A stretch of 64,000 nucleotides of DNA, taken from Styela clava. Its lineage: Eukaryota > Chordata > Ascidiacea > Stolidobranchia > Styelidae. The position numbers were made by a program, and so were the translations under genes. Location: assembly GCF_964204865.1 (NCBI RefSeq), contig NC_135259.1, positions 8,938,974 to 9,002,973 of the forward strand. The letters are read 5' to 3'. Shown here one piece after another: positions 19,277-62,956 of the stretch. Positions within the stretch are counted from its first letter, which is position 1. Every line of letters begins with the position of its first letter. The notes beneath the pieces are model-generated. The model searched no databases and was not told the origin of the DNA. It worked only from the letters and a program-made list of their open reading frames with translations.

Positions 19277-20562
19277 CTTTTCTCCCTGATGCAACGAAGG
19301 TAATTGTGAAATGAATTTTATGTATTTGTGCTTTTTTGTTTATAGCAACTAAAAATATGGATTGTTTCGTCATAATCATTCAATTATGATGTAATAATTG
19401 ATTTATGAAAAGAAAGTTAATAGTGTTTTTCGAAGTAATCTCTCGTGATATGTAGCGGACCCAATTTAACCACAAAGTTCCCTCCCTCACACCAAGTTAC
19501 AAAAGCTTACAGTTATCTTGGTGTGTGCGAGTGATCGTAATTCGCAATAAAATCCTCAGAATTTTTTTTAATTTTGAACAAATTTACGTTGACTTATATG
19601 ATAAAAATACAGCAATTGAAGTAATTTTCAATTAATTGTATTCGTTAGATTGGAGTTTTTATTATATGTCTCCTGTTTTAAAGGTTGTACACATACGGCG
19701 AATCAACCATGTTGATGTCATTCATTTTTATTTCCTATCCGTTAGATGATACACGAGAGGCAATTCATGTTTGATGATTAAACAAGATTATATTTTGCCG
19801 TCGTTCTTAAACCTTCTTATTTGATAACTTTCAAATTGTAACTTGTAGTTACACTTATTTGTTTAAAATGAATTGGGTTGAGTTTACTACTGCATTTATT
19901 CACTTTTGAATTTCATGCAATGAATAATTGAATTTTAAAGTGAGATTGAGATAACATACATGTAACAAGCGGGGCAAAATAGACTGAAAATGGTTTAAAT
20001 CCACGATTACATAAGCTATTTTGAGAAAATTTATAGGCCAAAGTAAAAATGAGTCGTCAATTAATGATATGACGTTAGAATCGATTTAATTTTATAAGAT
20101 CGGCATTTGTAGTGTATATGGGCTTAATACAATATCTGGGTATTAATGTGATTGTGAAATATTTGGCTTCCAAAATTTTCCACACTCTACAGAGGTGGTT
20201 TTCGACCCGAATTCCGCAGCACTCTGAAGGTTCATCCGTTACAGTTCAGGTGTACCGTAAGTTTACATCTTAATATCAAAATTTTTTACGGGTTTATTGT
20301 TTAAAAATATTCAAATAACTATTAGGTTTGCAAATATTATTACACTTTTACATTTTTCGTATCATTTTGTTTGGCCAGTTTTAGGTTTGATTGTATACAT
20401 ATATATTTATAGTTTATACAATATCTTTACAGCCTTGTAAAAATTTGTAAAATACCGTATTGCAAACTATTGTATTGTGGTTCCCCAAGCCTCTGAAATA
20501 TTCCATTAAAGTACCACTCTACCAAAAAGGTTGAAAATCCCCCGTCTATTGATTACATTTAC

Positions 20563-20802
20563 CATCGTTTCTCAAACTTTTCGTCGCAGAACACCTACGC
20601 TTTTTACCTCGCCCGGCGGAACACCAAAAAATAGGAAGGTAAAATGGATAATGAAAGAATTGTGTAACGGATTTACCTTGTGCGTCAACTTGCACAACCA
20701 GCTCACCACGATATCTTTTGAGGTTTTCAGTTCAAGCCAACAATCCATTGAAAAGGATGGACAGTGGGTGTGTTCCGGGGAACACAGTTTAAGAAACGCA
20801 GG
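20563..20802. mobile_element. hAT-like inverted-repeat element, short version (unit 1)
   Basis: The ends CATCGTTTCTCAAAC and GTTTAAGAAACGCAGG are imperfect inverted repeats of the hAT type. This copy is about 240 bp and lacks roughly 290 bp of inner sequence present in units 2-7. No clear target-site duplication was found. Confidence 0.45.
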
Positions 20803-21751
20803 ATTAGAGCATTGTCACAATTAGACTTTTTCTCAGCAAAAGTAAACACCAACATCGAGTGGTTATTGCTGTAAATTATTTTATAATTGACCGGGTCATA
20901 AATGAGCGAAACATTGACATTAATTTTTTAAAATGAATTCACGAACGAACGAACAAAATTGATTAATGATCTGTATTATATACGTATTCATAGATATAAT
21001 ATTTTCCAGTCCGATATTTTTATTCTGAATACCCCACGTGATCTAACATTGGTATAAGTTTTAATCTTTATTTATCATAGGCCAACGTGCTTGTCAATGT
21101 TAAAGTACATTCCGTATTCGAATATTTCGTTATATACAATAGCAAATTAGAAATGATGTTATTTTTAAATTTGGAACTAATTAAATTGTATTTTTCTACT
21201 TCGTCCGATAACGTTAGATTTCATCAGAAGCGGTGTATTTGGATTCTTACTTAGATTTTGGAATGTTGTGGCTATCGTGAAAGGGCTTTACCCCTTCGGT
21301 AACTTCTTAAATTTCGAAATATTTCGTGGGCGTGATTCTGTAATGTTTGCGAAGACCAATCAAATGGCCTTCACCAATAATATCCGCAAACATATATAAT
21401 CATATAAAAATTTCATGATATATTTGTGATCCGTAACTAATAGACCTTACAGATTTTAAAATATTATATTGTACTTTAGCACAGCGAAGAAGAAAATGAA
21501 CTTTGTGTATCTCACGTGGCGGTAAGAATGGTTACATCTTCGCCACCGTGGAAACACTTTATTAACTCACGCTTGAGTTACGCTCTCGTTCTCTCGTTTG
21601 TCACGGGGAATAACCTTTACGGAAAAGCTGTATTTATTTATTCGTCAAATTATCGCTGCTTCAAAATCAATATATCTATTCTACATTGCTAACCAAATAG
21701 TGCGATTCGACTGAAAACCCCACTTTAGATTATGTATTATCCGCTAAACTA

Positions 21752-21761
21752 AATATATAAA
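21752..21761 (+). promoter_or_regulatory. TATA-like box of IL-17-like copy 1
   Basis: The sequence AATATATAAA lies 128-137 bases before the ATG of copy 1. The same position reads ATATATAAAC in copy 7 but ATATATGAAC in copies 2, 3, 5 and 6, and AAATAAATGAAC in copy 4, so core promoter strength may differ between copies. Confidence 0.4.
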
Positions 21762-21888
21762 CGACAAGACAGAATGTTCATCAAAGCTGTTAAACGAGAT
21801 ATTGTACGTAGAACGGTATCAGACTACAAGTTTATAATATCGAGATTACTACTCATATTTTTGAAGAAAAAAAGTTTATCAAACCGCT

Positions 21889-23733
21889 ATGGCAAGCTTG
21901 AAGCTTTACATCAAGGTAATCTAAGGAAATAATATAAGACCATAAGAAACATGAATTACGTGCATTATAGTAATTGACGGTTTCATACGGGAATGATCGT
22001 ATTCTAAAGAATTACTTTTTGTAAACTTACTATATTTGTGACCGATATTCATCCGTAGGCTTAATATGACGACGAAACAATATGCTTATAACAGACTTTA
22101 GTAAATGACCAGATGATATATTATGTAAATTTTCGTATAATATGGTTGTATTGATAGATGATATATTTTTGTGTCCCATCATATTTTTAAGTAATGAGTA
22201 TATGTAGGTTTAAATATAAAAGTCTAACGAGGTTTTTGTTTTTTTAGATTGTTGCATTATGCTCTGTCTGTCTTATCAGCGTATCTTCATTTGACCCTGA
22301 GTAAGTGTTTAGTGATGTTCGCCAATTTTTTGTAATATATTTATCGGCGTTTTGAGATAGATTGGATTATTAAACTAATATCTAGTATTAATGTATTATT
22401 TAAATGTCATACATTGTATAATTTAGGGTAGAATTAATTCTGACTAGTGCGGTGCTAAAGGATTTAAAAAAAAAATTATTTATTTTGTTAAAAAATAACC
22501 TTCATACAGAATTTTAGAATGGTGTATTTGCTTATTTATTCGTATAAATATTACTCTTTAACAAAATCGTATGACTCATTAACAAAAATTATCTTTTCTT
22601 ACAGCTCAGACTTTATAAGAACTCACAACTGCAAAGTCAATAAAACAGAAACAGTAGATGATGGATTTGCTTCTTATTACTTGCATGGGTGAGTATCGAG
22701 TACATATTTTCAACTTTACGAGAGAGTATAAAAAATGAGTCTGAATTTCCTACGTGCTTTGAATCATTTATCTGCTTTATTACAAAGCTATAGTGATATT
22801 CTTATTTCTGCCGAGTAATACCACTCGGCCAATTAATATAATTTTAGGTGGACACAGATACCACATGTTGTCGCAAAGAGCAATACATACTTATATTTTG
22901 CTTGGAGAATAAAATAGCTAATTTATACTTCCCTCCAGTTGTGAAACCTTACACAATTTTACAATTCATCCATTCACGGTATTCGTATTTTCAGGATTGA
23001 TTGTCTAAACTTGAAGCCAAGTTCTTTCCCAAGCGCCATATGTTCATCCACAAGATGTCGCGAACCTATAAATGGAACACCTTTGTCTGGCAAAAGATAC
23101 GAACCAAAAGAAGTATTGTTTAAACTACACTTTGACAGTCGTCTAAATGGCAAATTTACAAAATCACTAACAGTTGCATGCAGGTATGTTTTTTTATCAT
23201 ATTTTATTGCAATATTTAAATTACAATGGCCCTTTTCAACATAATTAGTATAAATTTGAAATCTCTAAAATACTAAAAATGCTGACTAACATAAGAAATT
23301 GCTGTAATATTTAACCTCTCAATAAAACAAAAGTTGGGCAGCTATATATTGGTAAACACAAGACTGAAAAGTAAACCATTATTTTTTTCGACAAAGATCG
23401 TTCTGAATATGATTTCGTTTATTTTTTCTATTTTCAGTCAACTAATCAAAGTTAATTTAGATTTCAAAAGGGTATGTTATATTAAAGGTGTATGATAATT
23501 CCTCTTCGCCTTGTTAATTAGAAATAGATCATACAATACCTTTTATGGCATTATAAATAATGAAATTTTAAACTAGAAAAGTGATCCAACATTTAAGATT
23601 TTACTTTAGATGTGTCAAAGTCGAAAAATTGACTAAACGGCGAAAAGGAAGACGGGGCCGAAAAGGAGGAAAAGGCAAAGACAAGAAATCTCGTCGAGGA
23701 AAAAAAGCGAGAAAAGCTCACACAGACTCATAA
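21889..23733 (+). CDS. IL-17-like secreted cystine-knot protein with basic tail, copy 1
   Basis: Exons 21889-21915, 22248-22300, 22605-22688, 22995-23183 and 23610-23733 join with phases 0,2,2,2 and give 158 aa. Residues 1-23 form a signal peptide (MASLKLYIK then a hydrophobic run). Mature cysteines are at 36, 58, 71, 76, 117 and 119. C71 and C76 are four residues apart, and C117-R-C119 closes the domain 40 residues later; this closely matches the knot cysteines of IL-17 (C-x4-C, then about 44 residues, then C-x-C). A conserved-looking strand, YEPKEVLFKL, lies between them, like the IL-17 segment before its arginine pair. Residues 120-158 form a tail with 20 Lys/Arg in positions 121-153, which is not usual for IL-17. 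N-glycosylation sequons are N39KT and N81GT, the second unique to this copy. The likely role is an extracellular cytokine held on glycosaminoglycans (inference). PDGF/VEGF was considered, but the Cys pattern fits less well. Confidence 0.75.
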
Positions 23734-24279: not shown

Positions 24280-25104
24280 AGTGTGAGCGCGAGTGGAACA
24301 TTTACCCACATCGGTAAGACCGATTACATCATCGTCACCACGATAATACTTATTATCTCATGCTTGAGCTGCGCTTTCTTTATATTGTTCTCTCACCTGT
24401 CACGGAGAATAACCTCATGCTTATTACAGACTTTAGTGCAGGAGTCGAAAACCTTTTGTCGCTCGCGTGCCAAAATTAAGGGGTGCGAGTCATTGGCGGG
24501 CCTCCCATATTTTTAGAAAGTTGAAAACCGAACGGATGATACGTTTTATAAAAAAAATCAAGCAGTGATACATCTCTCGGATCGAATATTGATTTATTTC
24601 CTCATTGCATCTCAAAAAAGTCCCTTTGAATATTTTCGGCGCCATTGAACCCTTTGGACTTAGCATCAACTTTTCTGCGTTTAGTTGCCATTAATTAAAC
24701 GAGTTCAATAAACGAGTAATTGTGAATTTTAATATAATATAGGGTACACGTGTCTCACAATAAATTCTGTTGCGTAACATTCTGTATGTCAAAACAGCTG
24801 TTTTGCTACTATAAGTGAAGTGTCGCGGGCCGGGTTATATTACTCCGCGGGCCGGATCCGGCGTAGGGCCGTAGGATGCCGACCCCTGCTTTATTGAATG
24901 TCCATATGATATAAGATGTAAACTTAGATGGTAGTAAATATTTTGTATGATATGGTTGTAATGATACGTGATATATTTTCGTGTCCCATCATATTTTAGG
25001 TAATAAGTAAATGTGAGTGCTAATATAAAACTTTAACATTTTTGTTTTTAGACTGTCGCATTATGTTGCATCTGTATTATCAGCGTATCTTCATTTGATC
25101 CTGA
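24280..25104 (+). pseudogene. Remnant second gene copy with orphan signal-peptide exon (unit 1)
   Basis: 24280-24430 resembles the promoter region of the intact genes (compare 21520-21620). The segment that should hold the TATA box and exon 1 is missing. Sequence like intron 1 follows, split by a hAT element, and then an exon 2 homologue at 25052-25104 with intact splice sites that reads TVALCCICIISVSSFDP. Exons 3-5 are absent. It was disabled before the array spread, since every complete unit has the same structure. Confidence 0.7.
24439..24888. mobile_element. Non-autonomous hAT element (unit 1)
   Basis: 450 bp. Left end CAGGAGTCGAAAACC; the right end, read in reverse complement, is CAGGGGTCGGCATCC. 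Flanking 8-bp duplications are CTTTAGTG (24431-24438) and CTTTATTG (24889-24896, one change). No transposase frame is present. The GC-rich right end contains GCGGGCCGGATCCGGCG. Confidence 0.8.
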
Positions 25105-26340
25105 GTAAGAGTTGAGTAATTTCACAGTTATCTTGACGTGTTCTAGTTATCGTAATTTGCAATGAATTAACCAGAGGTTCTTTAAATGTGCGTTTCATTG
25201 TCGCACTTTATTAGATTACTTTTTTTATTTTATATTTTAAACAGATTCACAGTGATTTGTATCATAATATTACAGCATCTGGAGTAATTTTTTATAAATG
25301 ATATTCGTTTGATTGCTATTTTATTGTAGTATGTTTTTATGTGACTCCTGTTTTAAACAAAAGGTTGTACGTATACGACGAATCTTACATGCTAATGTCT
25401 TTCGTATTTATGTTCTATCCGCTAGGGAGTACACGAGAGGCAATTTATAATTGTTGATAAAATGACATTACATTTTCCCACCGTTCTCTGGCCCTCTATT
25501 TGATAACTTTCAAATTGGAACGTCTATGTACACCTAATTGTTTTAAATGAATTTGGTGGGTGTATTTATTCACTTTTGAATTTCATGCAATGTATTTTTG
25601 AATTTTAAAGTGAGATTGAGATAAATTCACGTAACAATCAGTAAAAATAGACAGATAATGTTTCAGATCCACGATAACAAAAGCTACTTTAAAAAATTTT
25701 ATAGACCAAAGTAAAATGAGCCGTCAATTAATGGTATGACGTGAAATAAAATTTTTTTTTTATAAAACCGGCGTTTGTAGTGTATATGTTCATAATATAA
25801 TATCTCGGTATTAATGTGATAACAAAAATTTGTTCGTAGTTTTCCAAATGCATTAGAGTGGCTTTGTGATACTTTGCGTCACATCAATTCAAGATATTTA
25901 AATTGTCCAGCGCAATACACATAAATGAGAGCAAAAAGATGAAATAATTGGCTTCCAACATTTCCAACACTCTACTGGGGGGGGGGGTTCGACGGAGTTC
26001 CGCAGTTACATTTCAGGATTACCGCAAGTTTACATCTTGAAGTATAATTTTTCACGGGTATATTGTTTAAACATATTCAAATAACTCTTAGATTTGCAAA
26101 TATTATTGAACTTGTATCATTTTGTTTTGACAGTTTCACATTATTAGAGATTGATTGTATAAATGTGTAATATATACTTATAGTTTATACAAATTTATAT
26201 TTTATATTAGATTATATATAGTGTGTAAAATAACGTATTGCAAACTATTGTATTGGGGTTCCCCAAACCTCCAGAATATTCCATAGAAGTTCCACTCCAC
26301 CGGAAAGGTTGAAAATGACCCGTCTATTGATTTCATTCAA

Positions 26341-27922: not shown

Positions 27923-29765
27923 ATGGCAAGCTTGAAGCTTTACATCAAGGTAAGCTAAGGAAATAGTATAAGACCATAAGAAACATGAGTTACGTGCATT
28001 ATAGTAATTGACGGTTTCATACGGGAATGATCGTATTCTAAAGAATTACTTTTCGTAAACTTACCTATATTTGTGTCTGATCTTCATCCGTGGGCTTAAT
28101 ATGACGACGGAACAATATGCTTATAACAGACTTTAGTAAATGGCCAGATGATATATTATGTAAATTTTTGTATAATATGGTTCTATTGATAGATGATATA
28201 TTTTTGTGTCCCATCATATTTTTAAGTAATGAGTATATGTAGGTTTAAATATAAAAGTCTAACGAGGTTTTTGTTTTTTTAGATTGTTGCATTATGCTCT
28301 GTCTGTCTTATCAGCGTAACTTCATTTGACCCTGAGTAAGTGTTAAGTGATGTTCGCTAATTTTTCGTAATATATTTATCGGCGTTTTAAGATAGATTTG
28401 ATTATTAAACTAATATCTAGTATTAATGTATTAATTAAATGGCATACATTGTATAATTTAGGGTAGGATTAATTCTGACTAGTGCGTTGCTAAACGTATT
28501 GAAAAAAAAAAATGTTTATTTTGTTAAAAAATAACCTTCATACAGAATTTTAGAATGGTATATTTGCTTATTTATTCGTATAAATATTACTCTTTAACAA
28601 AATCGTATGACTCATTAACAAATAATATCTTTTCTTATAGCTCAGAGTTTATAAGAACTCACAACTGCAAAGTCAATAAAACAGAAACAGTAGATGATGG
28701 ATTTGCTTCTTATTACTTGCATGAGTGAGTATCGAGTATATATTTCAACTTTACGAGAGAGTATAAAAATGAGTCTGAATTTCCTACGTGCTTTATTTAT
28801 TGATCTGTTTTATTACAAAGCTATAGTGATATTCTTATTTCTGCTGAGTAATACCACTCAGCATATTAATATAATTTTAGCTAGACACAGATTCCACATT
28901 TTTGTCGCAAAGAGCAATACTTATTTATATTTTGATTGGAGAATAAACCAGCTAATTTATACTTCCCTCCCGTTATAAAACCTTGCAAAATTTTACGATT
29001 CATTCATCTACGATATCCGTATTTTCAGGGTCAATTGTATAAACTTAGAGCCAAGTTCTTTCCCAAGCGCCATATGTTCATCCACAAGATGTCGCGAACC
29101 AATAAATGGAAAACCTTTGTCTGGCAAAAGATACGAACCAAAAGAAGTATTGTTTAAACTACACTTTGACAGTCGTCTAAATGGCAAATTCACAAAATCA
29201 CTAACAATTGCATGCAGGTATGTTTTTTTATCATATTTTATTTCAATATTTAAATTACAATGGCCCTTTTCAACATAATTAGTATAAATTTGAAATCCCT
29301 AAAATACTAAAAATGCTGACTTACATAAGAAATTGCTGTAATATTTAACCTCCCAATAAAACAAAAGTTGGGCAGCTGTATATTGATAAACACAAGACTG
29401 AAAAGTAAACCATAATTTTTTTTCGACAAAGATCATTCTGAATATGATTTCGTTTATTTTTTGTATTTTCAGTCAACTAATCAAAGTTAATTTAGATTTC
29501 AAAAGGGTATGTTATATTGAAGGTGTATGATTCCTCTTCGCCTTGTTAATTAGAAATAGATCATACAATACCACTTATGGCATTATAAATAATGAAATTT
29601 TAAACTAGAAAAGTGATCCAACATTTAATATTTTACTTTAGATGTGTCAAAGTCGAAAAATTGACTAAACGGCGAAAAGGAAGACGGGGCCGAAAAGGAG
29701 GAAAAGGCAAAGACAAGAAATCTCGTCGAGGAAAAAAAGCAAGAAAAGCTCATAGAGATTCATAA
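27923..29765 (+). CDS. IL-17-like secreted cystine-knot protein with basic tail, copy 2
   Basis: Exons 27923-27949, 28283-28335, 28641-28724, 29029-29217 and 29642-29765 (phases 0,2,2,2) give 158 aa. It has the same six mature cysteines and basic tail as copy 1. Differences from copy 1 include SVTSF in the signal peptide, LHEVNCINLEP around the exon 3/4 junction (LHGIDCLNLKP in copy 1), NGKPL instead of NGTPL (loss of one glycosylation sequon), TIAC instead of TVAC, and an end HRDS instead of HTDS. The coding exons look identical to copy 3. Confidence 0.75.
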
Positions 29766-30295
29766 TGATTCATTGCCGAACTGTTCAGACGTGATTGAAT
29801 TTGAAAATGTTTTGTTAGCTATTATTTATATATTATTTATCTATTTTTTCATGACTTCGTTTAAGGTAAAAATATTTAAAGCTGAATTTTGTTCTCACTA
29901 TATTCATACATATATATGAAATGCAATATTATTTTGGGGAATCCAAGTTTGCTTCAGTGTTAAATTGTATAAAATATTTTCAAAAATAATTATATTTTCA
30001 TGTATTTATTTATCAACTCTATTTATTATTTCCACTGAAAATTGTTCATTCTTTTAAATATTTTTATAATGTTAATCGACCAAATTTATAGTTTTCTATT
30101 AGCTATTATTTCAACTGGTTTTATTGAAGTCATGGTGCTGGACTTTACATAATTTAATATATTTGTTATTTTGGTGCTTCTAATAATTTTAAATAAATTA
30201 CTTTCTGCGTAACATGGGCATCTATGATATAGTTGTAGATATGAAAAAGTTGAGTGGATAAGTTTATAACCGTTTTTTGAGGGATTTGAGTGAAG

Positions 30296-31142
30296 TGTGA
30301 GCGCGAGTGGAATATTTACCTACGGCGATAAGAACGATTACATCATCGTCACCACGATAATACTTATTATCTCATGCTTGAGCTGCGCTATCGTTATATT
30401 GTTCTTTCACCTGTCACGGAGAATAACCTAATGCTTATTACAGACTTTAGTGCAGGAGTCGGAAACCTTTTGTCGCTCGCGTGCCAAAATTAAGGGGTGC
30501 GAGTCATTGGCGGGCCGCACATATTTTTAGAAAGTTGAAAACCGAACGGATGATACGTTTTATAATAAAAATCAAGCAGTGATACATCTCTCGAATCGAA
30601 TATTGATTTATTTCCTCATTGCATCTCAAAAAATTGCATAGCATCTCAAAAAAGTCCCTTTGAATGTTTTCGGCGCCATTGAACCCTTTGCACTCAGCAT
30701 CAAATTTTCTGCGTTTAGTTGCCATTAATTAAACGAGTTCAATAAACGAGTATTTGTGAATTTTATTATAATTCAGGGTACACGTGTCTCACAATAAATT
30801 CTGTTACGTAACATTCTGTTGGTCAAAACAGCTGTTTTGCTGCTATAATTCAGTGAAGTGTCGCGGGCCGGATTATATTACTCCGCGGGCCGGATCCGGC
30901 GCAGGGCCGTAGGTTGCCGACCCCTGCTTTAGTGAATGTCCATATGATATAAGATGTAAACTTGGATGGTAGTAAATATTTGGTATGATATGGTTGTATT
31001 GATACGTGATATATTTTCGTGTCCCATTATATTTTGAGTAATAAGTAAATGTGAGTGCTAATATAAAACTTTAACGTTTTTGTTTTTAGATTGTCGCATT
31101 ATGTTGCATCTGTCTTATCAGTGTATCTTCATTTGATTCTGA
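30296..31142 (+). pseudogene. Remnant second gene copy with orphan exon 2 (unit 2)
   Basis: Same structure as in unit 1: promoter-like block, hAT insertion, intron 1 fragment and orphan signal-peptide exon 31090-31142 reading IVALCCICLISVSSFDS, with acceptor tttttag and donor gtaaga intact. Confidence 0.7.
30453..30926. mobile_element. Non-autonomous hAT element (unit 2)
   Basis: 474 bp with ends CAGGAGTCGGAAACC and GGTTGCCGACCCCTG (inverted repeats), flanked by perfect 8-bp duplications CTTTAGTG at 30445-30452 and 30927-30934. It has 24 more bases than the unit 1 copy: an inner segment tandemly repeats part of gcatctcaaaaaa. Confidence 0.85.
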
Positions 31143-32374
31143 GTAAGAGTTGAGTAATTTCACAGTTATCTTGACGTGTTCTAGTTATCGTAATTTGCAA
31201 TAAATTCCCCAGAAGTCCTTTAAATGTGCGTTTCATTGTCGCACTTTATTAGATTACTTTTTTATTTTATATTTTAAACAGATTCACATTGATTTGTATC
31301 ATAATATTACAGCATCTGGAGTAATTTTTTATAAATGGTATTCGTTTGATTGCTATTTTATTGTAGTATGTTTTTATGTGACTCCTGTTTTAAACAAGAG
31401 GTTGTACGTATAGAACGAATCTTACATGCTTAGGTCTTTCGTATTTATGTTCTATCCGCTAGGGAGTACACGAGAGGCAATTTATAATTGTTGATAAAAT
31501 GACATTACATTTTCCCACCGTTCTCTGGCCCTCTATTTGATAACTTTCAAATTGGAACGTCTATGTACACCTAATTGTTTTAAATGAATTTGGTGGGTGT
31601 ATTTATTCACTTTTGAATTTCATGCAATGTATTTTTGAATTTTAAAGTGAGATTGAGATAAATTCACGTAACAATCAGTAAAAATATACAGATAATGTTT
31701 CAAATCCACGATAACAAAAGCTACTTTAAAAAATTTTATATACCAAAGTAAAATGAGCCGTCAATTAATGGTATGACGTGAAATTAGATTTTTTTTTTAT
31801 AAAACCGGCGTTTGTAGTGTATATGTTCATAATGTAATATCTCGGTATTAATGTGATAACAAAAATTTGTTCGTAGTTTTCCAAATGCATTTGAGTGGCT
31901 TTGTGATACTTTGCGTCACATCAATTCAAGATATTTAAATTGTCCAGCGCAATACTCATAAAGGAGAGCAAAAAGATGAAATAATTGGCTTCCAACATTT
32001 CCAACACTCTACAGGTGGGTTTTCGACGGAGTTCCGCAGTTACATTTCAGGATTACCGCAAGTTTACATCTTGAAGTATAATTTTTCACGGGTATATTGT
32101 TTAAACATATTCAAATAACTATTAGATTTGCAAATATTATTGATATTGTATCATTTTGTTTTGACAGTTTCACATTATTAGAGATTGATTGTATAAATGT
32201 GTAATATATACTTATAGTTTATACAAATTTATATTTTATATTAGATTATATATAGTGTGTAAAATAACGTATTGCAAACTATTGTATTGGGGTTCCCCAA
32301 ACCTCCAGAATATTCCATAGAAGTTCCACTCCACCGGAAAGGTTGAAAATGACCCGTCTATTGATTTCATTCAA

Positions 32375-33956: not shown

Positions 33957-35799
33957 ATGGCAAGCTTGAAGCTTTACATCAAGGTAAGCTAAGGAAATAG
34001 TATAAGACCATAAGAAACATGAGTTACGTGCATTATAGTAATTGACGGTTTCATACGGGAATGATCGTATTCTAAAGAATTACTTTTCGTAAACTTACCT
34101 ATATTTGTGTCTGATCTTCATCCGTGGGCTTAATATGACGACGGAACAATATGCTTATAACAGACTTTAGTAAATGGCCAGATGATATATTATGTAAATT
34201 TTTGTATAATATGGTTCTATTGATAGATGATATATTTTTGTGTCCCATCATATTTTTAAGTAATGAGTATATGTAGGTTTAAATATAAAAGTCTAACGAG
34301 GTTTTTGTTTTTTTAGATTGTTGCATTATGCTCTGTCTGTCTTATCAGCGTAACTTCATTTGACCCTGAGTAAGTGTTAAGTGATGTTCGCTAATTTTTC
34401 GTAATATATTTATCGGCGTTTTAAGATAGATTTGATTATTAAACTAATATCTAGTATTAATGTATTAATTAAATGGCATACATTGTATAATTTAGGGTAG
34501 GATTAATTCTGACTAGTGCGTTGCTAAACGTATTGAAAAAAAAAAATGTTTATTTTGTTAAAAAATAACCTTCATACAGAATTTTAGAATGGTATATTTG
34601 CTTATTTATTCGTATAAATATTACTCTTTAACAAAATCGTATGACTCATTAACAAATAATATCTTTTCTTATAGCTCAGAGTTTATAAGAACTCACAACT
34701 GCAAAGTCAATAAAACAGAAACAGTAGATGATGGATTTGCTTCTTATTACTTGCATGAGTGAGTATCGAGTATATATTTCAACTTTACGAGAGAGTATAA
34801 AAATGAGTCTGAATTTCCTACGTGCTTTATTTATTGATCTGTTTTATTACAAAGCTATAGTGATATTCTTATTTCTGCTGAGTAATACCACTCAGCATAT
34901 TAATATAATTTTAGCTAGACACAGATTCCACATTTTTGTCGCAAAGAGCAATACTTATTTATATTTTGATTGGAGAATAAACCAGCTAATTTATACTTCC
35001 CTCCCGTTATAAAACCTTGCAAAATTTTACGATTCATTCATCTACGATATCCGTATTTTCAGGGTCAATTGTATAAACTTAGAGCCAAGTTCTTTCCCAA
35101 GCGCCATATGTTCATCCACAAGATGTCGCGAACCAATAAATGGAAAACCTTTGTCTGGCAAAAGATACGAACCAAAAGAAGTATTGTTTAAACTACACTT
35201 TGACAGTCGTCTAAATGGCAAATTCACAAAATCACTAACAATTGCATGCAGGTATGTTTTTTTATCATATTTTATTTCAATATTTAAATTACAATGGCCC
35301 TTTTCAACATAATTAGTATAAATTTGAAATCCCTAAAATACTAAAAATGCTGACTTACATAAGAAATTGCTGTAATATTTAACCTCCCAATAAAACAAAA
35401 GTTGGGCAGCTGTATATTGATAAACACAAGACTGAAAAGTAAACCATAATTTTTTTTCGACAAAGATCATTCTGAATATGATTTCGTTTATTTTTTGTAT
35501 TTTCAGTCAACTAATCAAAGTTAATTTAGATTTCAAAAGGGTATGTTATATTGAAGGTGTATGATTCCTCTTCGCCTTGTTAATTAGAAATAGATCATAC
35601 AATACCACTTATGGCATTATAAATAATGAAATTTTAAACTAGAAAAGTGATCCAACATTTAATATTTTACTTTAGATGTGTCAAAGTCGAAAAATTGACT
35701 AAACGGCGAAAAGGAAGACGGGGCCGAAAAGGAGGAAAAGGCAAAGACAAGAAATCTCGTCGAGGAAAAAAAGCAAGAAAAGCTCATAGAGATTCATAA
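33957..35799 (+). CDS. IL-17-like secreted cystine-knot protein with basic tail, copy 3
   Basis: Exons 33957-33983, 34317-34369, 34675-34758, 35063-35251 and 35676-35799 give 158 aa. Every exon sits exactly 6034 bases from its counterpart in copy 2, and the introns match as well. This is either a very recent duplicate or an assembly duplication. Signal peptide, six mature cysteines and basic tail are as in copy 2. Confidence 0.75.
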
Positions 35800-36329: not shown

Positions 36330-37176
36330 TGTGAGCGCGAGTGGAATATTTACCTACGGCGATAAGAACGATTACATCATCGTCACCACGATAATACTTA
36401 TTATCTCATGCTTGAGCTGCGCTATCGTTATATTGTTCTTTCACCTGTCACGGAGAATAACCTAATGCTTATTACAGACTTTAGTGCAGGAGTCGGAAAC
36501 CTTTTGTCGCTCGCGTGCCAAAATTAAGGGGTGCGAGTCATTGGCGGGCCGCACATATTTTTAGAAAGTTGAAAACCGAACGGATGATACGTTTTATAAT
36601 AAAAATCAAGCAGTGATACATCTCTCGAATCGAATATTGATTTATTTCCTCATTGCATCTCAAAAAATTGCATAGCATCTCAAAAAAGTCCCTTTGAATG
36701 TTTTCGGCGCCATTGAACCCTTTGCACTCAGCATCAAATTTTCTGCGTTTAGTTGCCATTAATTAAACGAGTTCAATAAACGAGTATTTGTGAATTTTAT
36801 TATAATTCAGGGTACACGTGTCTCACAATAAATTCTGTTACGTAACATTCTGTTGGTCAAAACAGCTGTTTTGCTGCTATAATTCAGTGAAGTGTCGCGG
36901 GCCGGATTATATTACTCCGCGGGCCGGATCCGGCGCAGGGCCGTAGGTTGCCGACCCCTGCTTTAGTGAATGTCCATATGATATAAGATGTAAACTTGGA
37001 TGGTAGTAAATATTTGGTATGATATGGTTGTATTGATACGTGATATATTTTCGTGTCCCATTATATTTTGAGTAATAAGTAAATGTGAGTGCTAATATAA
37101 AACTTTAACGTTTTTGTTTTTAGATTGTCGCATTATGTTGCATCTGTCTTATCAGTGTATCTTCATTTGATTCTGA
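36330..37176 (+). pseudogene. Remnant second gene copy with orphan exon 2 (unit 3)
   Basis: Equivalent to 30296-31142, with the orphan signal-peptide exon at 37124-37176. Open and with intact splice sites; no exon 1 or exons 3-5. Confidence 0.7.
36487..36960. mobile_element. Non-autonomous hAT element (unit 3)
   Basis: 474 bp, the same ends and perfect CTTTAGTG duplications as in unit 2. It was copied with the unit rather than inserted independently. Confidence 0.85.
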
Positions 37177-45908: not shown

Positions 45909-47752
45909 ATGGCAAGCTTGAAGCTTTACATCAAGGTAAGCTAAGGAAATAATATAAGACCATAAGAAACATGAGTTACGTGCATTATAGTAATTGACGG
46001 TTTCATACGGGAATGATCGTATTCTAAAGAATTACTTTTCGTAAACTTACCTATATTTGTGTCTGATCTTCATCCGTGGGCTTAATATGACGACGGAACA
46101 ATATGCTTATAACAGACTTTAGTAAATGGCCAGATGATATATTATGTAAATTTTTGTATAATATGGTTCTATTGATAGATGATATATTTTTGTGTCCCAT
46201 CATATTTTTAAGTAATGAGTATATGTAGGTTTAAATATAAAAGTCTAACGAGGCTTTTGTTTTTTTAGATTGTTGCATTATGCTCTGTCTGTCTTATCAG
46301 CGTAACTTCATTTGACCCTGAGTAAGTGTTAAGTGATGTTCGCTAATTTTTCGTAATATATTTATCGGCGTTTTAAGATAGATTTGATTATTAAACTAAT
46401 ATCTAGTATTAATGTATTAATTAAATGGCATACATTGTATAATTTAGGGTAGGATTAATTCTGACTAGTGCGTTGCTAAACGTATTGAAAATAAAAATGT
46501 TTATTTTGTTAAAAAATAACCTTCATACAGAATTTTAGAATGGTATATTTGCTTATTTATTCGTATAAATATTACTCTTTAACAAAATCGTATGACTCAT
46601 TAACAAATAATATCTTTTCTTATAGCTCAGAGTTTATAAGAACTCACAACTGCAAAGTCAATAAAACAGAAACAGTAGATGATGGATTTGCTTCTTATTA
46701 CTTGCATGAGTGAGTATCGAGTATATATTTCAACTTTACGAGAGAGTATAAAAATGAGTCTGAATTTCCTACGTGCTTTATTTATTGATCTGTTTTATTA
46801 CAAAGCTATAGTGATATTCTTATTTCTGCTGAGTAATACCACTCAGCATATTAATATAATTTTAGCTAGACACAGATTCCACATTTTTGTCGCAAAGAGC
46901 AATACTTATTTATATTTTGATTGGAGAATAAACCAGCTAATTTATACTTCCCTCCCGTTATAAAACCTTGCAAAATTTTACGATTCATTCATCTACGATA
47001 TCCGTATTTTCAGGGTCAATTGTATAAACTTAGAGCCAAGTTCTTTCCCAAGCGCCATATGTTCATCCACAAGATGTCGCGAACCAATAAATGGAAAACC
47101 TTTGTCTGGCAAAAGATACGAACCAAAAGAAGTATTGTTTAAACTACACTTTGACAGTCGTCTAAATGGCAAATTCACAAAATCACTAACAATTGCATGC
47201 AGGTATGTTTTTTTTTATCATATTTTATTGCAATATTTAAATTACAATGGCCCTTTTCAACATAATTAGTATAAATTTGAAATCCCTAAAATACTAAAAA
47301 TGCTGACTAACATAAGAAATTGGTGTAATATTTAACCTCTCAATAAAACAAAAGTTGGGCAGCTGTATATTGATAAACAGAAGACTGAAAAGTAAACCAT
47401 AATTTTTTTTCGACAAAGATCATTCTGAATATGATTTCGTTTATTTTTTGTATTTTCAGTCAACTAATCAAAGGTAATTTAGATTTCAAAAGGGTATATT
47501 ATATTGAAGGTGTATGATTCCTCTTCGCCTTGTTAATTAGAAATAGATCATACAATACCTCTTATGGCATTATAAATAATGAAATTTCAAACTAGAAAAG
47601 TGATCCAACATTTAATATTTTACTTTAGATGTGTCAAAGTCGAAAAATTGACTAAACGGCGAAAAGGAAGACGGGGCCGAAAAGGAGGAAAAGGCAAAGA
47701 CAAGAAATCTCGTCGAGGAAAAAAAGCAAGAAAAGCTCATAGAGACTCATAA
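45909..47752 (+). CDS. IL-17-like secreted cystine-knot protein with basic tail, copy 5
   Basis: Exons 45909-45935, 46269-46321, 46626-46709, 47014-47202 and 47629-47752 give 158 aa. It shares with copies 2 and 3 variants that neighbours 4 and 6 lack: SVTSF in the signal peptide, an HRDS end, and intron 1 sequence tgtctgatcttcatccgtgg. The predicted protein appears identical to copies 2 and 3 in the exons I read. Gene conversion or duplication order is the likely cause. Confidence 0.75.
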
Positions 47753-48287: not shown

Positions 48288-49094
48288 AGTGTGAGCGCGA
48301 GTGGAACATTTACCCACATCGGTAAGACCGATTACATCATCGTCACCACGATAATACTTATTATCTCATGCTTGAGCTGCGCTTTCTTTATATTGTTCTC
48401 TCACCTGTCACGGAGAATAACCTCATGCTTATTACATACTTTAGTGCAGGAGTCGAAAACCTTTTGTCGCTCGCGTGCCGAAATTGGGGGGTGCGAGTCA
48501 TTGGCGGGCCTCCCATATTTTTAGAAAGTTGAAAACCGAACGGATGATACGTTTTATAAAAAAAATCAAGCAGTGATACATCTATCGAATCGAATATTGA
48601 TTTATTTCCTCATTGCATCTCAAAAAAGTCCCTTTGAATATTTTCGGCGCCATTGAACCCCTTGGACTTAGCATCAACTTTACTGCGTTTAGTTGCCATT
48701 AATTAAACGAGTTCAATAAACGAGTAATTGTGAATTTTAATATAATTTAGGGTACACGTGTCTCACAATAAATTCTGTTGCGTAACATTCTGTTTGTCAA
48801 AACAGCTGTTTTGCTACTATAAGTGAAGTGTCGCGGGCCGGGTTATATTACTCCGCGGGCCGGATCCGGCGTAGGGCCGTAGGTTGCCGACCCCTGCTTT
48901 ATTGAATGTCCATATGATATAAGATGTAAACTTAGATGGTAGTAAATATTTTGTATGATATGGTTGTAATGATACGTGATATATTTTAGGTAATAAGTAA
49001 ATGTGAGTGCTAATATAAAACTTAAACGTTTTTGCTTTTAGACTGTCGCATTATGTTGCATCTGTCTTATCAGCGTATCTTCATTTGATCCTGA
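48288..49094 (+). pseudogene. Remnant second gene copy with orphan exon 2 (unit 5)
   Basis: Promoter-like block, hAT element and orphan signal-peptide exon 49042-49094. The intron-like segment before the exon has lost the block gtgtcccatcatat (gatatattttaggtaataag at 48979-48998). The exon is still open. Confidence 0.7.
48447..48896. mobile_element. Non-autonomous hAT element (unit 5)
   Basis: 450 bp, the short form like unit 1, with CTTTAGTG on the left and CTTTATTG on the right. It shares this right-hand change with unit 1, so units 1 and 5 have a common version here, although the unit 5 gene body resembles units 2 and 3. Confidence 0.85.
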
Positions 49095-50302
49095 GTAAGT
49101 GTTGAGTAATTTCACAGTCATCTTGACGTGTTCTAGGTAACGTAATTTGCAATAAATTCTCCAGAGGTCCTTTAAATGTGCGTTTCATTGTCGCACCTTA
49201 TTAGATTATTATTTTTTTAATTTTAAATTTTAAACAGATTCTCATTGATTTGTATCATAATATTACAGCATCTGAAGTAATTTTTCATAAATGGTATTTG
49301 TTAGATTGCTGTTTTTATTGTAGTATGTTTTTATGTGACTCCTGTTTTAAATAACAGGTTGTACGTATACGACGAATCTTACATGCTAATGTCTTTCGTG
49401 TTTATGTTCTATCCGCTAGGGAGTACACGAGAGGCAATTTATAATTGTTGATAAAATGACATTACATTTTCTCACCGTTCTCTGGCCCTCTATTTGATAA
49501 CTTTCAAATTGGAACGTCTTGGTCCCCTAATTGTTTTAAATGAATTTGGTGGGTGTATTCATTCACTTTTGAATTTGATGCAATGTAATTTTGAATTTTA
49601 AAGTGAGATTGAGATAAATTCACGTAACAAGCAGTAAAAATAGACAGAAAATGATTCAAATCTACAATAACAAAAGCTATTTAATAGACCAAAGTAAAAT
49701 GAGCCGTCAATTAATGGTATGACGTAAAATTAGATTTTTTTTTATAAAACCGGCGTTTGTAGTGTATATGTTAATAATATAATATCTCGGTATTAATGTG
49801 ATAACAAAAATTTGTTCGTAGTTTTCCAAATGCATTTGAGTGGCTTTGTGAAACTTGGCGTCACATCAATTCAAGATATTTAAATTGTCCAGCGCAATAC
49901 TCATAAAGGAGAGCAAAAAGATAAAATAATTGACATCCAACATTTCCAACACTCTACAGGGGGGTTTTCGACGGAGTTCCGCAGTTACATTTCAGGATTA
50001 CCGCAAGTTTACATCTCGAAGTATAATTTTTCACGGGTATAGCAAATGTTATTAAACTTGTATCATTGTGTTTTGACAGTTTCACATTATTTGAGATTGA
50101 TTGTATAAATGTGTAATATATATTTATATTTTATACAAATTTATATAGCCCTGCAGCCTTACAAGAAGTATACTGTAGATAGGTGTGTAAAATAACGTAT
50201 TGCAAACTATTGTATTGGGGTTCCCCAAACCTCCAGAATATTCCGTCGAAGTTTCACTCCACCGAAAAGGTTAAAAATGACCCGTCTATTGAGTACATTC
50301 AA

Positions 50303-51888: not shown

Positions 51889-53689
51889 ATGGCAAGCTTG
51901 GAGCTTTACATCAAGGTAATCTAAGGAAATAATATAAGACCATAAGAAACATGAATTACGTGCATTATAGTAATTGACGGTTTCATACGGGAATGATCGT
52001 ATTCTAAAGAATTACTTTTTGTAAACTTACCTATATTTGTGACCGATATTCATCCGTAGGCTCAATATGACGACGGAACAATAAGCTTATAACAGACTTT
52101 AGTAAATGGCCAGATGATATATTATGTAAATTTTCGTATAATATGGTTCTATTGATAGATGATATATTTTTGTGTCCCATCATATTTTTAAGTAATGAGT
52201 ATATGTAGGTTTAAATATAAAAGTCTAACGAGGTTTTTGTTTTTTTAGATTGTTGCATTATGCTCCGTCTGTCTTATCAGCGTATCTTCATTTGACCCTG
52301 AGTAAGTGTTTAGTTATGTTCGCCAATTTTTCGTAATATATTTATCGGCGTTTTAAGATAGATTGAATTATTAAACTAATATCTAGTATTAATGTATTAA
52401 TTAAATGTCATACATTGCATAATTTAGGGTAAAATTAATTCTGACTAGTGCGGTGCTAAAGAATTTAAAAAAAATTATTTATTTTGTTAAAAAATAACAT
52501 TCATACAGAATTTTGGAATGGTATATATGTCTATTTATTCGTATAAATAATACTCTTCATTAAAATCGTACGGTTCTTTAACAAATATTATCTTTTTCCT
52601 ATAGCTCAGAGTTTATAAGAACTCACAACTGCAAAGTCAATAAAACAGAAACAGTAGATGATGGATTTGCTTCTTATTACTTGCATGAGTGAGTACCGAA
52701 TACATATTTCAACTTTCTAAGACAGTGTAAAAATGAGTCTGAATTTCCTACGTGCTTTGATTTATTTATCTGTTTTATTACAAAGCTAGTGATATTCTTA
52801 TTCCGGCTGAGTAATACCACTCGGCATTAATATAATTTTAGCTAGACACAGATTCCACATGTTTGTCGCAAAGAGCAATACTTTTTTATATTTTGCTTGG
52901 AGAATAAACTAGCTAATTTATACTTCCCTCCCTTTATAAAACCTTGCAAAATTTTACGATTCATTCATCTACGATATCCGTATTTTCAGGGTTAATTGTA
53001 TAAACTTAGAGCCAAGTTCTTTCCCAAGCGCCATATGTTCATCCACAAGATGTCGCGAACCTATAAATGGAAAACCCTTGTCTGGCAAAAGATACGAACC
53101 AAAAGAAGTATTGTTTAAACTACACTTTGACAGTCGTCTAAATGGCAAATTCACAAAATCACTAACAGTTGCATGCAGGTATGTTTTTTATTTCATATTT
53201 TATTGCAATATTTAAATTACCCAATATACTAAAAATGCTAACTAGCATAAGAAATTGGTGTAATATTTAACCTCTCAATAAAACAAAAGTTGGGCAGCTA
53301 TATATTGATAAACACAAGATTGAAAAGTAAACTATAATATGTTTTTCAACAAAGATCATTCTGAAAATGATTTTGTTTTGTTTTTTCTATTTTCAGTCAA
53401 CTATCAAAAGTTAATTTAGATTTCAAAAGAGTATCTTATATTAAAGGTGTATGATTCCTCTTCGCCTTATTAATTAGAAATAGATCATACAATACTTCTT
53501 ATGGCATCATAAATAATGAAATTTCAAACAATAAAAGTGAACCAACATTTAATATTTTACTTTAGATGTGTCAAAGTCGAAAAATTGACTAAACGGCGAA
53601 AAGGAGGACGGGGCCGAAAGGGAGGAAAAGGCAAAGACAAGAAATCTCGTCGAGGAAAAAAAGCGAGAAAAGCTCACACAGACTCATAG
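51889..53689 (+). CDS. IL-17-like secreted cystine-knot protein with basic tail, copy 6
   Basis: Exons 51889-51915, 52249-52301, 52605-52688, 52990-53178 and 53566-53689 give 158 aa. It begins MASLELYIK like copy 4 and ends HTDS with stop TAG instead of TAA. The tail reads RRKGGRGRKGGKG. All six mature cysteines and the C-x4-C / C-x-C spacing are kept. Intron 4 has lost about 55 bases (near 53220) compared with other copies. Confidence 0.75.
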
Positions 53690-57473: not shown

Positions 57474-59172
57474 ATGTCAAGCTTAAAGCTTTACGTCAAG
57501 GTAAGCCGTAGAAATAATATCATACCATAAGAAACATGAATTATGTGCATTAGTGATTGACGGTTTTATATGGGACTGATCGTATTCTAATAAAATAACT
57601 GTTCGTAAATGTACATGTAGCCTATTTGTGACCGATATTGATCTGTAGGCTGAATATGACGACGGAGTAGTATGATTATAACAGGCTCTAGTACATGTCC
57701 AGATGATATAATATGTAATTTTTTAAGAGAAGATGGTACTAAATATTTTGTAAAATATGGTTGTATTGATAATGATATATATTCATGTGCCATCATATTT
57801 TTGAATAATAAGTACATGTGAGTGCTAATATAAAATTTTAACGTGGGTTTTATTTTTAGATTGCTGCATTATGCTCCATCTATCTTATCAGCGTATCTTC
57901 ATTTGACCCTGAGTAAGTGTTTAGTTATGTTCACTAATTTTTCGTATTATCGGCGTTTTAAAATAGATTAAATAAATATCCAGTATTAAAGTATTAATGA
58001 AACGGCATATTTTGTAGATATTGGCAAATAATTCAAATGCTCTTCAACAATATCGTATGGCTTATTAACAAATTCTATTTTTTTATAGTTCAGAGTTTAT
58101 AAGAGCTCACAGTTGCGAAGTTGTCGAATCAGAAAAAGTAGATGATGGATTTGCTTCCTATTACGTGCATGGGTGAGTACCCAGTGCATATTTCAAATTT
58201 ACAAGAGGGGGTTAAAATGAGCCTGAATTTTCCTCGTGTTTGATTTATGTATCTGGTTTATTATAAAGCTAGTGATTCCTTATTCCGGTTGAGTAACAAC
58301 ACTCGGCATATTAATATACTTTTAGATGGACACAGTGTCAACAGGTTTGTCACAAAGGGCAATACATATTTAGTTTTTGCTTCAAAAAAAGGACAGCCCT
58401 TATGCAAATAAATGTATTCCTCCCTACCATTAAAAAACTCAATATAATTTTACAATTTATTCATTTACGGTATTCGTATTTTCAGGATTGAATGTAAAAA
58501 CTTATCGCCAAGTTTCTTCCGCAACGCAACATGTTCATCCACAAGATGTCGCGAACCTATAAAAGGAAAACATTTGTCTGACAAAAGATACGAACCAGAA
58601 GAAGTATTGTATATTCAAAACTTTGACAGTCGACTCAGTGGAAAACTTTCACAATCACTAACAGTTGCATGCAGGTATGTTCCCTTTTTATATCATATTT
58701 TTAAATCACTAAAATACCAAAAGTATTAACTAAAATCAGACGATTGATGTAATATTCAACGTCTCAATAAAAGTTGAGCAACTATATATCGACAAACACA
58801 ATATTGAAAAGTAAACCATAATATTTGTTCAACAAAGATCATTCCGAATAAGACTTTGTTAATTTTATTTTTTCCAGTCAACTATTAAAAATTGATTAAA
58901 CATTTGAAGGTATGCTAAATAAAACATGCATGATAATTCCTCCTTGAGTGCTTAACTTACACATAGAGAATACAATACCATTTGTAGTATTATATGCAAT
59001 GAAATTTCAAACTAGAAAAGTAATCCGGAATTTAATTTTTTTTATCTTCAGATGTGTCAAAGTCGAAAAATTGACTAGACGGCGAAAAGGAAGAAAGGGC
59101 CGAAAACGAGGAAAAGGCAAAGACAAGAAATCTCGTCGAGGAAAAAAAGAAAGAAAAGCTCACAGAGAATAA
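57474..59172 (+). CDS. IL-17-like secreted cystine-knot protein with basic tail, copy 7 (most diverged)
   Basis: Exons 57474-57500, 57860-57912, 58089-58172, 58486-58674 and 59052-59172 (phases 0,2,2,2) give 157 aa. It begins MSSLKLYVK; the signal run is IAALCSIYLISVSSF. The six mature cysteines are conserved. Exon 3 is SEFIRAHSCEVVESEKVDD, so the N-K-T sequon is lost. Exon 4 contains a new sequon (RNATCSS) directly at the C-x4-C motif, and KRYEPEEVLYIQNFDSRL. The tail is as basic as in other copies, RRRKGRKGRKRGKGKDKK, and ends AHRE. Many changes are replacements while the cysteines and tail character stay, which suggests a functional gene. The TATA-like ATATATAAAC lies upstream near 57337. 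Confidence 0.75.
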
Positions 59173-59729: not shown

Positions 59730-61783
59730 CAATTGTTTTGTTTAAATGCATTGATTCTAAAACATGATACATTATAATATTGTATGCAAGTATGTATTCT
59801 CACAGAAACTATACAGACCTAAGGGAGAGAGAGAGAGAGCCGAAGTAAATTGTGTATAAAACTTAATCCAAATTTAATATTTATACAGTCTTGTTATAAC
59901 AAATTTACGTTATATTCACTTAAATTAATCGTAAAATTTCATCTAATATATAAATAAAAATAAAGTATTACATATTTATAAATCGTTTAAATGCTTCAAA
60001 CAAAGCTCAAATATAAATGACGAAATGCCGTCAAATTTAATTATGACTATTTAATTGATTGGCTGTTTTGATCAGGTTTTGCTTCAAGTAATTCAATGTC
60101 GTCATTTCAATTCTTGTCATTGGGTTGCGATTGCAGATTAAAATGAAGTTAAATTACAATTCTAAAAATATATAGAGACAAGTAAAATTACAGGTGGTTC
60201 GTATTGAGTATTAGAATGGCGACCCCTACTTAGATGTTGATTTGAAAATATTGTCTAAATATCAATAAATTTTACCTTGTAGTTGGATTAACCCCAACGT
60301 TTAAAGTCGATGATTCTTGCCTAATTTTCCCAGGTCAGAATTGCGCTCGAGGCTGTGCATTTACATTATTTGGCAATCGATAGTTTTAGAAGGTATTTAA
60401 ATAAATTAGCACCAATTTTAAGCAAATGAGTACAAAATCATTATTATGTAGGCATTTGGAGTTTTGTTAATTCAAAAAATATATTAGGAAAAAAAAAGTA
60501 TTTTAGTTTCAGCAAATAAATTTCTTCAAAAGTAAACGTATATTTGCGCAAAATTTAGGCAAGTATACTTACTATTTTAAGAGTATTATTTCTGATACTA
60601 ATTCCATCGCATTACTCTAAAAATAGAACCTAATGCCTGCGCATAGGGATATTAAGAATATTATTTCAAGACCTTAGTATATAACAATGTCATACCAATA
60701 ACTGAACTTTGTCTATATCATTTTGCACATAATCTGGTTTTATTTTTTACATTCGAATTCCATCAAATATATATACTATATACGCACTGTTTAGTTATTT
60801 AAAACGCAGTATTCTTCTTGACGTCATATACCAAAAAATAGTTAATTTGAAAAACATTGTCGTGAGATAATCTTTTATTTGCGCGAGGAATTACTACGAC
60901 AACAAATTTGTCACGTATTGGAAATGTACTAGTACAGAAGTGTAAACTTTTGTGAAATACCGGTCTGTATATACCTATCAATTTGAAATAGTTTATAGAA
61001 ACATCTATGTTTAGATACTTTTATAAATTGTTGACTAATAATTTTACCCTGGCGGAACAATACCTAGGGTATTGTAATAAAAAACCTTTCAAATATTACT
61101 TGGGCATTGTAATATGGAAGCACCAGTGTGACAATAAAATGGAATTTACGTCTACATCTTTGAAAACATATGCTATAGCTAATTAATCAAATCGTCTTTA
61201 TGGTGATCATGGACCTGAGAGACAATATGTTTCACAAATTCGTGCACAATTTCTAACGGTAATGTTCTATTCCTAGAAGAATAACGAAAGGCGGAAATTG
61301 GCTGGCATGCACAGACAGTCTTGATTACGTATTCGGCATATTCTCTGAAATTGAAATGTGTGCAGTTAATAATAATATATTATATTGGTATGATATCAAT
61401 GAGTGCGTCAAGATCGTTACGTGAAAAATCGTGACAGTGAAATTCGAGAGAATATTACTCCTATTACGTAAATATTCTCTCGTTCTTACACACGTGTTAA
61501 AGGAAAGCCCCAATATTGTCGACTGCTGTGACTGCAACATTCGAAATAAAATAGCGCCCTAAAATAGACCGGAAAAGAATCAGAGTTCCAGTATTAAAGC
61601 CAGATTTTTTTTTAAAAATATTCCTAGATACGAAAAAAAAGGAAAGTAATTTCGCAATGTATCGATCAAAGCTTTATAAAGCTCGCATGTCGGTCGAATT
61701 ATCATTAAAATCATTAAACAGATGAAACTAACAAAACAAGAAAAAGCGAGAAGAAATAATTTATGAATTCCTGCACTAATAAC
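59730..61783. other. Spacer between the array and the eighth gene
   Basis: Homology to the array ends near 59729. The region holds a short GA microsatellite (about 59825-59839) and AT-rich sequence. No exon or RNA gene was recognised. Confidence 0.4.
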
Positions 61784-62956
61784 ATGGTAATGGATTTTTT
61801 TTTTAAATCGGCATACAGTATGTGATTAAAGTTATATTAATGTTGTATATTTTTGTTCTCACAGACAACTTCTGCGACTTTATTGGCTTTTCTTACTATG
61901 TTTGCATGGAGTACGACAATGGCCCTTTCAGGGTAAGTAGATCGAATTTGTGTGGTTATTTCGTAACGTGGGTGAAGCATTATAAATGCATATTTAGTTT
62001 AGTCGGCTCACAAGTCAAGCTCGTTATGTATCCAAGGTACAATCTGTATTGTTTGTTACCCGGACGTGTATTATCAAGTCGCCCGTAATTTCTCTGCGCT
62101 ATATATTAGCACTATATCATCTAACTAAATCATACCATCATATTTAAACCTAATTCAAATTTGATAGAATTTTTTTTTGAAAAAATACAATTGCTGTATG
62201 AATATAATTCAAAAGTATTACCTAACGTTCTATAATATTTCAATTCCAGGGCGGAATTTTCAAAAAATCATCGTTGTCAAGAATTTCTGGATGTTGAACT
62301 AAATGATAGATATGCACCGCATACCATGAGATGGTAAGAAATAACTGAGATTGATTTGTGCCTGCTCTTGATAGAAATATTATATTAAAAATTATTAATT
62401 CATCGAACATTTTTCCGCAGTTTGTATAATTTGAAGTTGATTGTTGAGGTAAAATATCAATTTTATCTCAACTCCAACATATCATCATTCATGGGAAAAA
62501 TAATAATGTGCTTATACCGTATATACACTAACATGATCCTTGTGATTTTGTAAAGGTTCGAATGTACGAACATGGTTCCCTCAACATACTCAAATACGAC
62601 TTGTCCACTAAGATGTAGAGATCCTGAAACAAATCAGTTTCTACCTCTTTCAAGTTTCCGACAGCTGCCTGTATTTGCATGTGAAAGTTTTGAGGTCAGG
62701 AGAAATGGAAAAATTTTCAAAGAATCTGTTGCAATTGTAAAAGGGTGCAGGTGAATTAGTTTTTACTCAACATTTTTTTGGTTGAAGTATTTTAACATTG
62801 TAAAAAGTAAATAGGGATTTCTTAAAAAACAAGTCCACTACATTTCAATTAACACTACAGGATAAGCTATCAATTTTAATTTATTATTTTTTCATTTTAT
62901 CTAGTTGTGTGGAAGCTGCAACTGCAACTAGTAATACATATAGCGTCATGTGTTGA
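61784..62956 (+). CDS. IL-17-like secreted cystine-knot protein without basic tail (eighth, diverged member)
   Basis: Exons 61865-61932, 62250-62333, 62556-62750 and 62905-62956 join in phases 2,2,2. The first of these needs an upstream phase-0 start; ATG|gtaatg at 61784-61786 is my best candidate but is uncertain. It would give 133 aa. Residues 2-22 form a signal peptide. Exon 3 is exactly 84 nt as in the array genes and aligns with it (AEFSKNHRCQ vs SDFIRTHNCK). Exon 4 has C-PLR-C-RDP against C-SSTR-C-REP in the array, LPVFACESFEVRRNG, and ends VAIVKGC. Exon 5 supplies S-C-V, giving the closing C-x-C-V motif typical of IL-17, then a short neutral tail ending in Cys. Two extra cysteines (94 and 133) could pair with each other or mediate dimers. 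The sequon is N65TT. Confidence 0.65.

Follow-up and report, generated by a model that had tools for sequence, protein, structure and literature searches.

A tandem array of seven probable, strongly diverged IL-17-family cytokine genes in the ascidian Styela clava

We describe here a tandem array of seven genes in a 64,000-nucleotide stretch of the Styela clava genome (the window; C13:8938974-9002973, C13 being contig NC_135259.1), which is very probably the expansion of a secreted, strongly diverged cytokine gene of the IL-17 family. Profile comparisons support, at the level of sequence, the homology of the array proteins with the IL-17s of the same genome and with the IL-17F entries of the PDB.

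Gene structure and relationship to IL-17

The tandem units, of about 6 kb each, begin about 20.4 kb into the window, and from them we reconstructed seven intact genes of five exons. All their introns are GT-AG and every frame is open, and the array runs from a first ATG at 21889 to a last stop at 59172, which amounts to 37.3 kb and not to the 40 kb given in an earlier, sequence-only reading of this DNA. The exons measure 27, 53, 84, 189 and 124 nt in copies 1-6, the last exon of copy 7 being 121 nt long; the intron phases are 0, 2, 2 and 2 in all seven genes, and a TATAA stands 56 or 57 bases upstream of each ATG. The proteins (158 residues in copies 1-6, 157 in copy 7) have an N-terminus that appears hydrophobic by eye and carry mature cysteines 36, 58, 71, 76, 117 and 119 in 7/7 copies, forming the pattern C-x4-C, 40 residues, C-x-C, with an intron falling between the two cysteines of C-x-C. 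All seven end in a basic tail of 37-38 residues, with 18-22 lysines plus arginines, 2-4 aspartates plus glutamates and a net charge of +16 to +18. The five exons, their phases, the 84-nt third exon and the six spaced cysteines are as the sequence-only reading had described them; its start for the cluster, 19507, lies 2.4 kb ahead of the first exon found, and the tblastn matches listed place no copy in 19507-21888.

That reading had also assigned the genes to the IL-17 family, an assignment now supported as homology by bridge genes, by profile-profile comparison and by profile searches of the PDB. (i) Two genes on C1 (L028, C1:22.958-22.962 Mb), which we call bridges, carry both the SPW motif and the extra cysteine typical of the array and its diverged relatives in the genome, together named the clan here. 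The bridges are related to each other (E 1.8e-17), and one of them passes the Pfam IL-17 profile PF06083 (E 3.5e-5) and matches copy 7 at 8.6e-9 (eight subjects). (ii) Against a profile of the genome's own canonical IL-17s, the window alignment reached a probability of 82.2 (100 shuffles, at most 6.8) and 21 clan rows reached 94.9 (maximum of 200 shuffles 20.4; 0.2 when reversed). With extended sets, hhalign gave 95.1 for all rows, 91.2 without the bridges and 77.6 for the window rows alone, the respective maxima of 100 shuffles per set being 1.4, 2.4 and 3.4. (iii) Among 177,635 PDB sequences, a 13-row clan profile including the two bridges found IL-17F on top (E 4.3e-4), with IL-17A next (0.035-0.22) and IL-17 as the best 24 of 29 matches; the bridge-free clan profile had IL-17F as the top three of six matches (E 0.035-0.039). 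The canonical profile (16 rows) recovered IL-17A, IL-17F and IL-25 at 4.4e-12 to 9.4e-7, and the yardstick is therefore sound.

The rows behind these comparisons are selections. From the 32 genome places that match PF06083, 24 rows made up the canonical set, leaving aside the C1 bridge, four near-duplicates, one truncated sequence and two not retrieved (one with stops); from the canonical genes we chose 16 rows for profile A5 and 11 for A8. The roughly 46 clan and bridge places supplied 21 rows to one profile comparison, 18 to profile A4, 13 to A7, 11 to A9 and 28 to the tree, with near-duplicates, damaged exons and sequences not retrieved omitted.

The alignments also agree in detail. All seven array proteins keep four knot cysteines in IL-17 order (the C-x4-C region, then C-x-C), and in 13/13 rows of our choosing, IL-17F included, the distance from the tryptophan of SPW or its counterpart is +12 or +13 to a proline and +20 or +21 to the first knot cysteine. 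With the vertebrate IL-17A and IL-17F (PF06083) the array shares the proline at +12, the cysteines at +20 and +25 and a C-terminal C-x-C-V; it differs from them in having FASY for SPW, an extra cysteine pair (36, 58), the intron that splits C-x-C and the long basic tail. It also seems to do without the interchain cysteine of IL-17F. The canonical IL-17s of this genome (on C3, C5, C2, C8 and C10) likewise form tandem clusters and end in G-C-x-C, and by eye they have a phase-2 intron ahead of the domain exon wherever an SPW exon was found; unlike the array, they pass PF06083, have SPW and a C-x-C-x2-C, and keep C-x-C within one exon. We do not claim an identical intron position in the two sets: the phase is 2, and by eye the position lies within about one codon of that in the C8/C2/C10 group.

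The wider clan and its possible function

The expansion that the sequence-only reading took to be lineage-specific is supported, and it is larger than the window shows. In the genome searched (376.6 Mb, 379 contigs), copy 7 found 57 matches at E up to 1, and further searches found 39, 33 and 5. Their union, counted by hand, places 34 domain exons within C13:8.962-9.231 Mb, a cluster of 269 kb of which the window covers one end; C13:9002974-9231446, about 228 kb beyond it, holds a further 26 domain exons, including four damaged ones (two with stops, two with knot cysteines lost). Twelve further clan domain exons, the two bridges included, lie elsewhere on C13, on C6 and on C1. None of the 32 PF06083 places is on C13, and 31 remain besides the C1 bridge. 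In all, the genome contains about 77 IL-17-type domain exons, some damaged, and seven SEFIR matches. A tree was built from 52 domain rows and 76 columns, which the tool flags as few columns for so many rows; in it, a branch with support 100/98 divides the 24 canonical rows from the 28 clan and bridge rows.

Comparable repertoires exist elsewhere. PMC8353272 describes dozens of tandem, lineage-specific IL-17 genes in bivalves, octopus and sea urchin, as in this genome; those were identified by domain, whereas most of the present clan lies below Pfam's reach. The same paper reports a CPW/SPW motif before the IL-17 domain as recurrent, with variations, counts seven IL-17s in Ciona, and lists in its Table 5 chordates with 5 to 18 IL-17 sequences. 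According to PMC5465252, Ciona has three IL-17s, which go up in haemocytes after treatment with lipopolysaccharide; the family in that tunicate is the same, against about 77 IL-17-type domain exons here. Among the best-ranked literature matches, from a collection with few subscription journals, none described a large expansion of IL-17 in tunicates, and those on heparin-binding or antimicrobial IL-17s supplied nothing used here. If the branch does lie below Pfam's reach, domain-based counts may miss many IL-17s in some chordates, and near-identical, basic-tailed tandem copies could serve as a test case, in an animal close to the vertebrates, for the dose of a cytokine, for gene conversion and for retention in the matrix.

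A broader interpretation can be offered only tentatively, as possible more than probable. Beside about 31 canonical domain exons, the clan would form a second, hidden branch of the family with about 46, of which at least four are damaged and two are the SPW bridges, and Pfam would miss nearly all of it; its recent array would encode cytokines that are matrix-anchored or bind microbes directly through the polybasic tail, perhaps fast-turnover barrier signals for few receptors. As part of the main reading, the array proteins would be exported by means of a signal peptide and would adopt an IL-17 fold with two crossed disulphides, C71-C117 and C76-C119 by analogy, plus an additional C36-C58 pair. 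Signalling may pass through few SEFIR receptors for many ligands and drive epithelial or haemocyte defence, and the tail may tether the cytokine to acidic glycans or to matrix, favouring action near the source. Multiple copies would raise the dose and allow the copies to diverge.

The tail might instead be the active part: on an IL-17 scaffold that is kept, the proteins would act directly as cationic host-defence agents and receptor signalling would have been lost. The strongly basic composition of the tail in 7/7 copies fits this idea, as does the presence of long arginine-rich tails in two canonical IL-17 genes on C5 (L013 and L014, C5:15.02-15.03 Mb) and of basic tails in two C6 clan genes that consist of a single exon. 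However, the knot domain has been retained alongside the tail, and we regard a purely cationic role as unlikely.

Points against the IL-17 assignment

Several results weigh against placing the array in the IL-17 family. (i) The sequence-only reading had proposed PF06083 as a check, and no window protein clears its cut-off. Among the six proteins scanned (copies 1, 2, 4, 6 and 7 and the eighth gene; copies 3 and 5 equal copy 2), two touch the profile with 11.8 and 12.5 bits (E 0.33 and 0.2), compared with a cut-off of 24 that is a detection threshold and not a biochemical feature, and the other four have no match. (ii) Single sequences scored with the genome's own IL-17 profile fail to exceed their shuffles: copy 7 has 9.1 bits where its shuffles reach 10.3 (484 of the 500 gave a score), copy 2 has 5.1 where they reach 6.7 (477 scored) and the eighth gene 5.8 where they reach 7.0 (477 scored). 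The C1 bridge alone exceeds its own (15.3 against 7.9; 490 scored). (iii) The short domain-exon profile A4 (18 rows, one a bridge) found no IL-17 in the PDB, its two matches being BCL10 (E 0.72 and 0.75); only longer profiles, spanning the FAPY/SPW stretch, found IL-17 there. (iv) At the SPW position the array has FASY and the eighth gene YAPH, several clan genes have FAPY or FAPF, and only the two bridges have SPW itself; the array also has no counterpart of the middle cysteine in the canonical C-x-C-x2-C. (v) Clan genes outside the chosen 13 rows break the spacing: L044 and L065 are without the proline, and in L071 three residues are inserted. (vi) An AlphaFold model, made for the exon-4 fragment only (62 residues, six sequences), has a predicted local distance difference test (pLDDT) score of 44.6, too poor to inform on the fold in either direction.

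Another cystine-knot growth factor family, of the Spaetzle, neurotrophin or PDGF type, could have converged on C-x4-C and C-x-C, and cysteine-rich secreted proteins readily converge. The window proteins that all stay under the PF06083 cut-off, the single-sequence scores within the range of the shuffles and the lost SPW are what would be said for it. Nevertheless, neither the Pfam scans nor the PDB profile searches brought up another cystine-knot family, whose appearance the sequence-only reading had named as counting against its call, and the latter searches yielded IL-17 (profiles of the rival families were not compared directly); moreover, the bridges have both SPW and the clan's extra cysteine. 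Convergence is, in our judgement, quite improbable, and homology with IL-17 is retained.

Other scans produced little. Across 14 rows (13 clan, one bridge), Pfam reported IL17 in two, at best 3.5e-5, and single hits to three other families (E 0.0059 to 0.086), which we take as chance. We take as chance, too, INTS7_C_plants on residues 15-42 of copy 4 (E 0.023) and the single phmmer match of copy 2 in the PDB (E 2.4). An NCBIfam scan of copy 2 returned nothing, and the window gave no hit to Rfam or in a tRNA scan. COX1, looked for as a guide to the mitochondrial code, had no match.

Copies, eighth gene and growth of the array

The seven copies and the eighth gene all lie on the plus strand. Copy 1 (21889..23733) has exons 21889-21915, 22248-22300, 22605-22688, 22995-23183 and 23610-23733; copy 2 (27923..29765) has 27923-27949, 28283-28335, 28641-28724, 29029-29217 and 29642-29765; and copy 3 (33957..35799) has 33957-33983, 34317-34369, 34675-34758, 35063-35251 and 35676-35799. 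The exons of copy 4 (39996..41841) are 39996-40022, 40356-40408, 40713-40796, 41104-41292 and 41718-41841, those of copy 5 (45909..47752) 45909-45935, 46269-46321, 46626-46709, 47014-47202 and 47629-47752, and those of copy 6 (51889..53689) 51889-51915, 52249-52301, 52605-52688, 52990-53178 and 53566-53689. Copy 7 (57474..59172), the most diverged, consists of 57474-57500, 57860-57912, 58089-58172, 58486-58674 and 59052-59172. Copies 2, 3 and 5 encode one identical protein and show no coding difference across the 462 nt compared.

The eighth gene (61657..62956) has exons 61657-61692 (tentative, with a weak donor), 61865-61932, 62250-62333 (84 nt), 62556-62750 and 62905-62956, and our model ends where the sequence-only reading had ended it. 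That reading had counted seven copies plus a diverged eighth: the seven array copies stand, and the eighth gene shares the phases 0, 2, 2, 2 and the 84-nt exon, but it has C-x3-C instead of C-x4-C and groups apart. In the tree, the array rows used (copies 1, 2, 4 and 7) form one clade (97/85), whereas the eighth gene has its sister gene at C13:2.69 Mb (98/93), and the two group next with three other cluster genes (99/96). These sequence relationships mark it as an adjacent clan member of a different subfamily and not as a decayed eighth copy.

Coding constraint on the array, as read from comparison of the copies, is present but loose. For the 8 of 21 copy pairs tabulated, the exons have no indels in 477 sites; the introns of the same pairs have 22-27 where copy 7 is involved (three pairs) and 6-11 in the remaining five, and exon divergence is below intron divergence in 8/8. 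The ratio of nonsynonymous to synonymous substitution rates (dN/dS), over the first 462 nt, ranges from 0.19 to 1.39 among the 18 pairs with differences and stays under 1 in 17 of them. In a simulation, 8.2% of 5,000 reading frames were still stop-free after 10% neutral substitution.

The units are 91.9-99.9% identical among copies 1-6 and 75.0-78.2% identical to copy 7. Copies 1-5 are each followed by a relic exon 2, which comes with fragments of the 5' flank and of intron 1: a partial duplicate at 25054..25109 after copy 1, and further relics at 31090..31147 after copy 2, 37124..37181 after copy 3, 43183..43238 after copy 4 and 49044..49100 after copy 5, all on the plus strand. The unit that multiplied therefore probably already contained a partial older duplicate.

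Part of the copy number could be an artefact of assembly, through uncollapsed haplotypes or repeated joining. Copies 2 and 3 (27923-35799) are 99.92% identical over 5,901 sites, and this pair represents either a very recent duplication, a conversion or an assembly duplicate; but the remaining 20 pairs are only 75.0-96.8% identical and the cluster goes on with diverged members, and we see little chance that an artefact accounts for copies in this way. That the array is decaying or non-expressed, as the relic exons behind five copies, the stops or lost knot cysteines in 4 of 34 cluster exons and the loose dN/dS might suggest, is very improbable given that the seven window genes are all open, with intact splice sites and without exon indels in the tabulated pairs.

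Elsewhere in the window, 5335-13604 (plus strand) contains open frames with repeated tryptophan-containing, charged, coiled-coil-like stretches, perhaps exons of a single gene, with weak, sub-threshold matches to CCDC34 (E 0.0039 and 0.044). In 17735-19339 (minus strand) there are two open frames, one of them rich in lysine and arginine and AT-hook-like by eye, for which Pfam gave no convincing family. Outside the window, at C9:16.18 Mb (L069), on a large contig, a GH6 exon (E 1.5e-6) lies among open frames that, judged by eye, contain membrane-spanning stretches and further GH6-like exons. GH6 is not known from animals other than tunicates, and the exon accordingly points to a tunicate. Cellulose synthase is present in every tunicate genome and in no other animal genome examined, according to PMC6523144, and the C-terminal domain of the tunicate enzyme is GH6, as stated in PMC7464555. 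The arrangement at this locus is the one that would be expected for a tunicate cellulose synthase.

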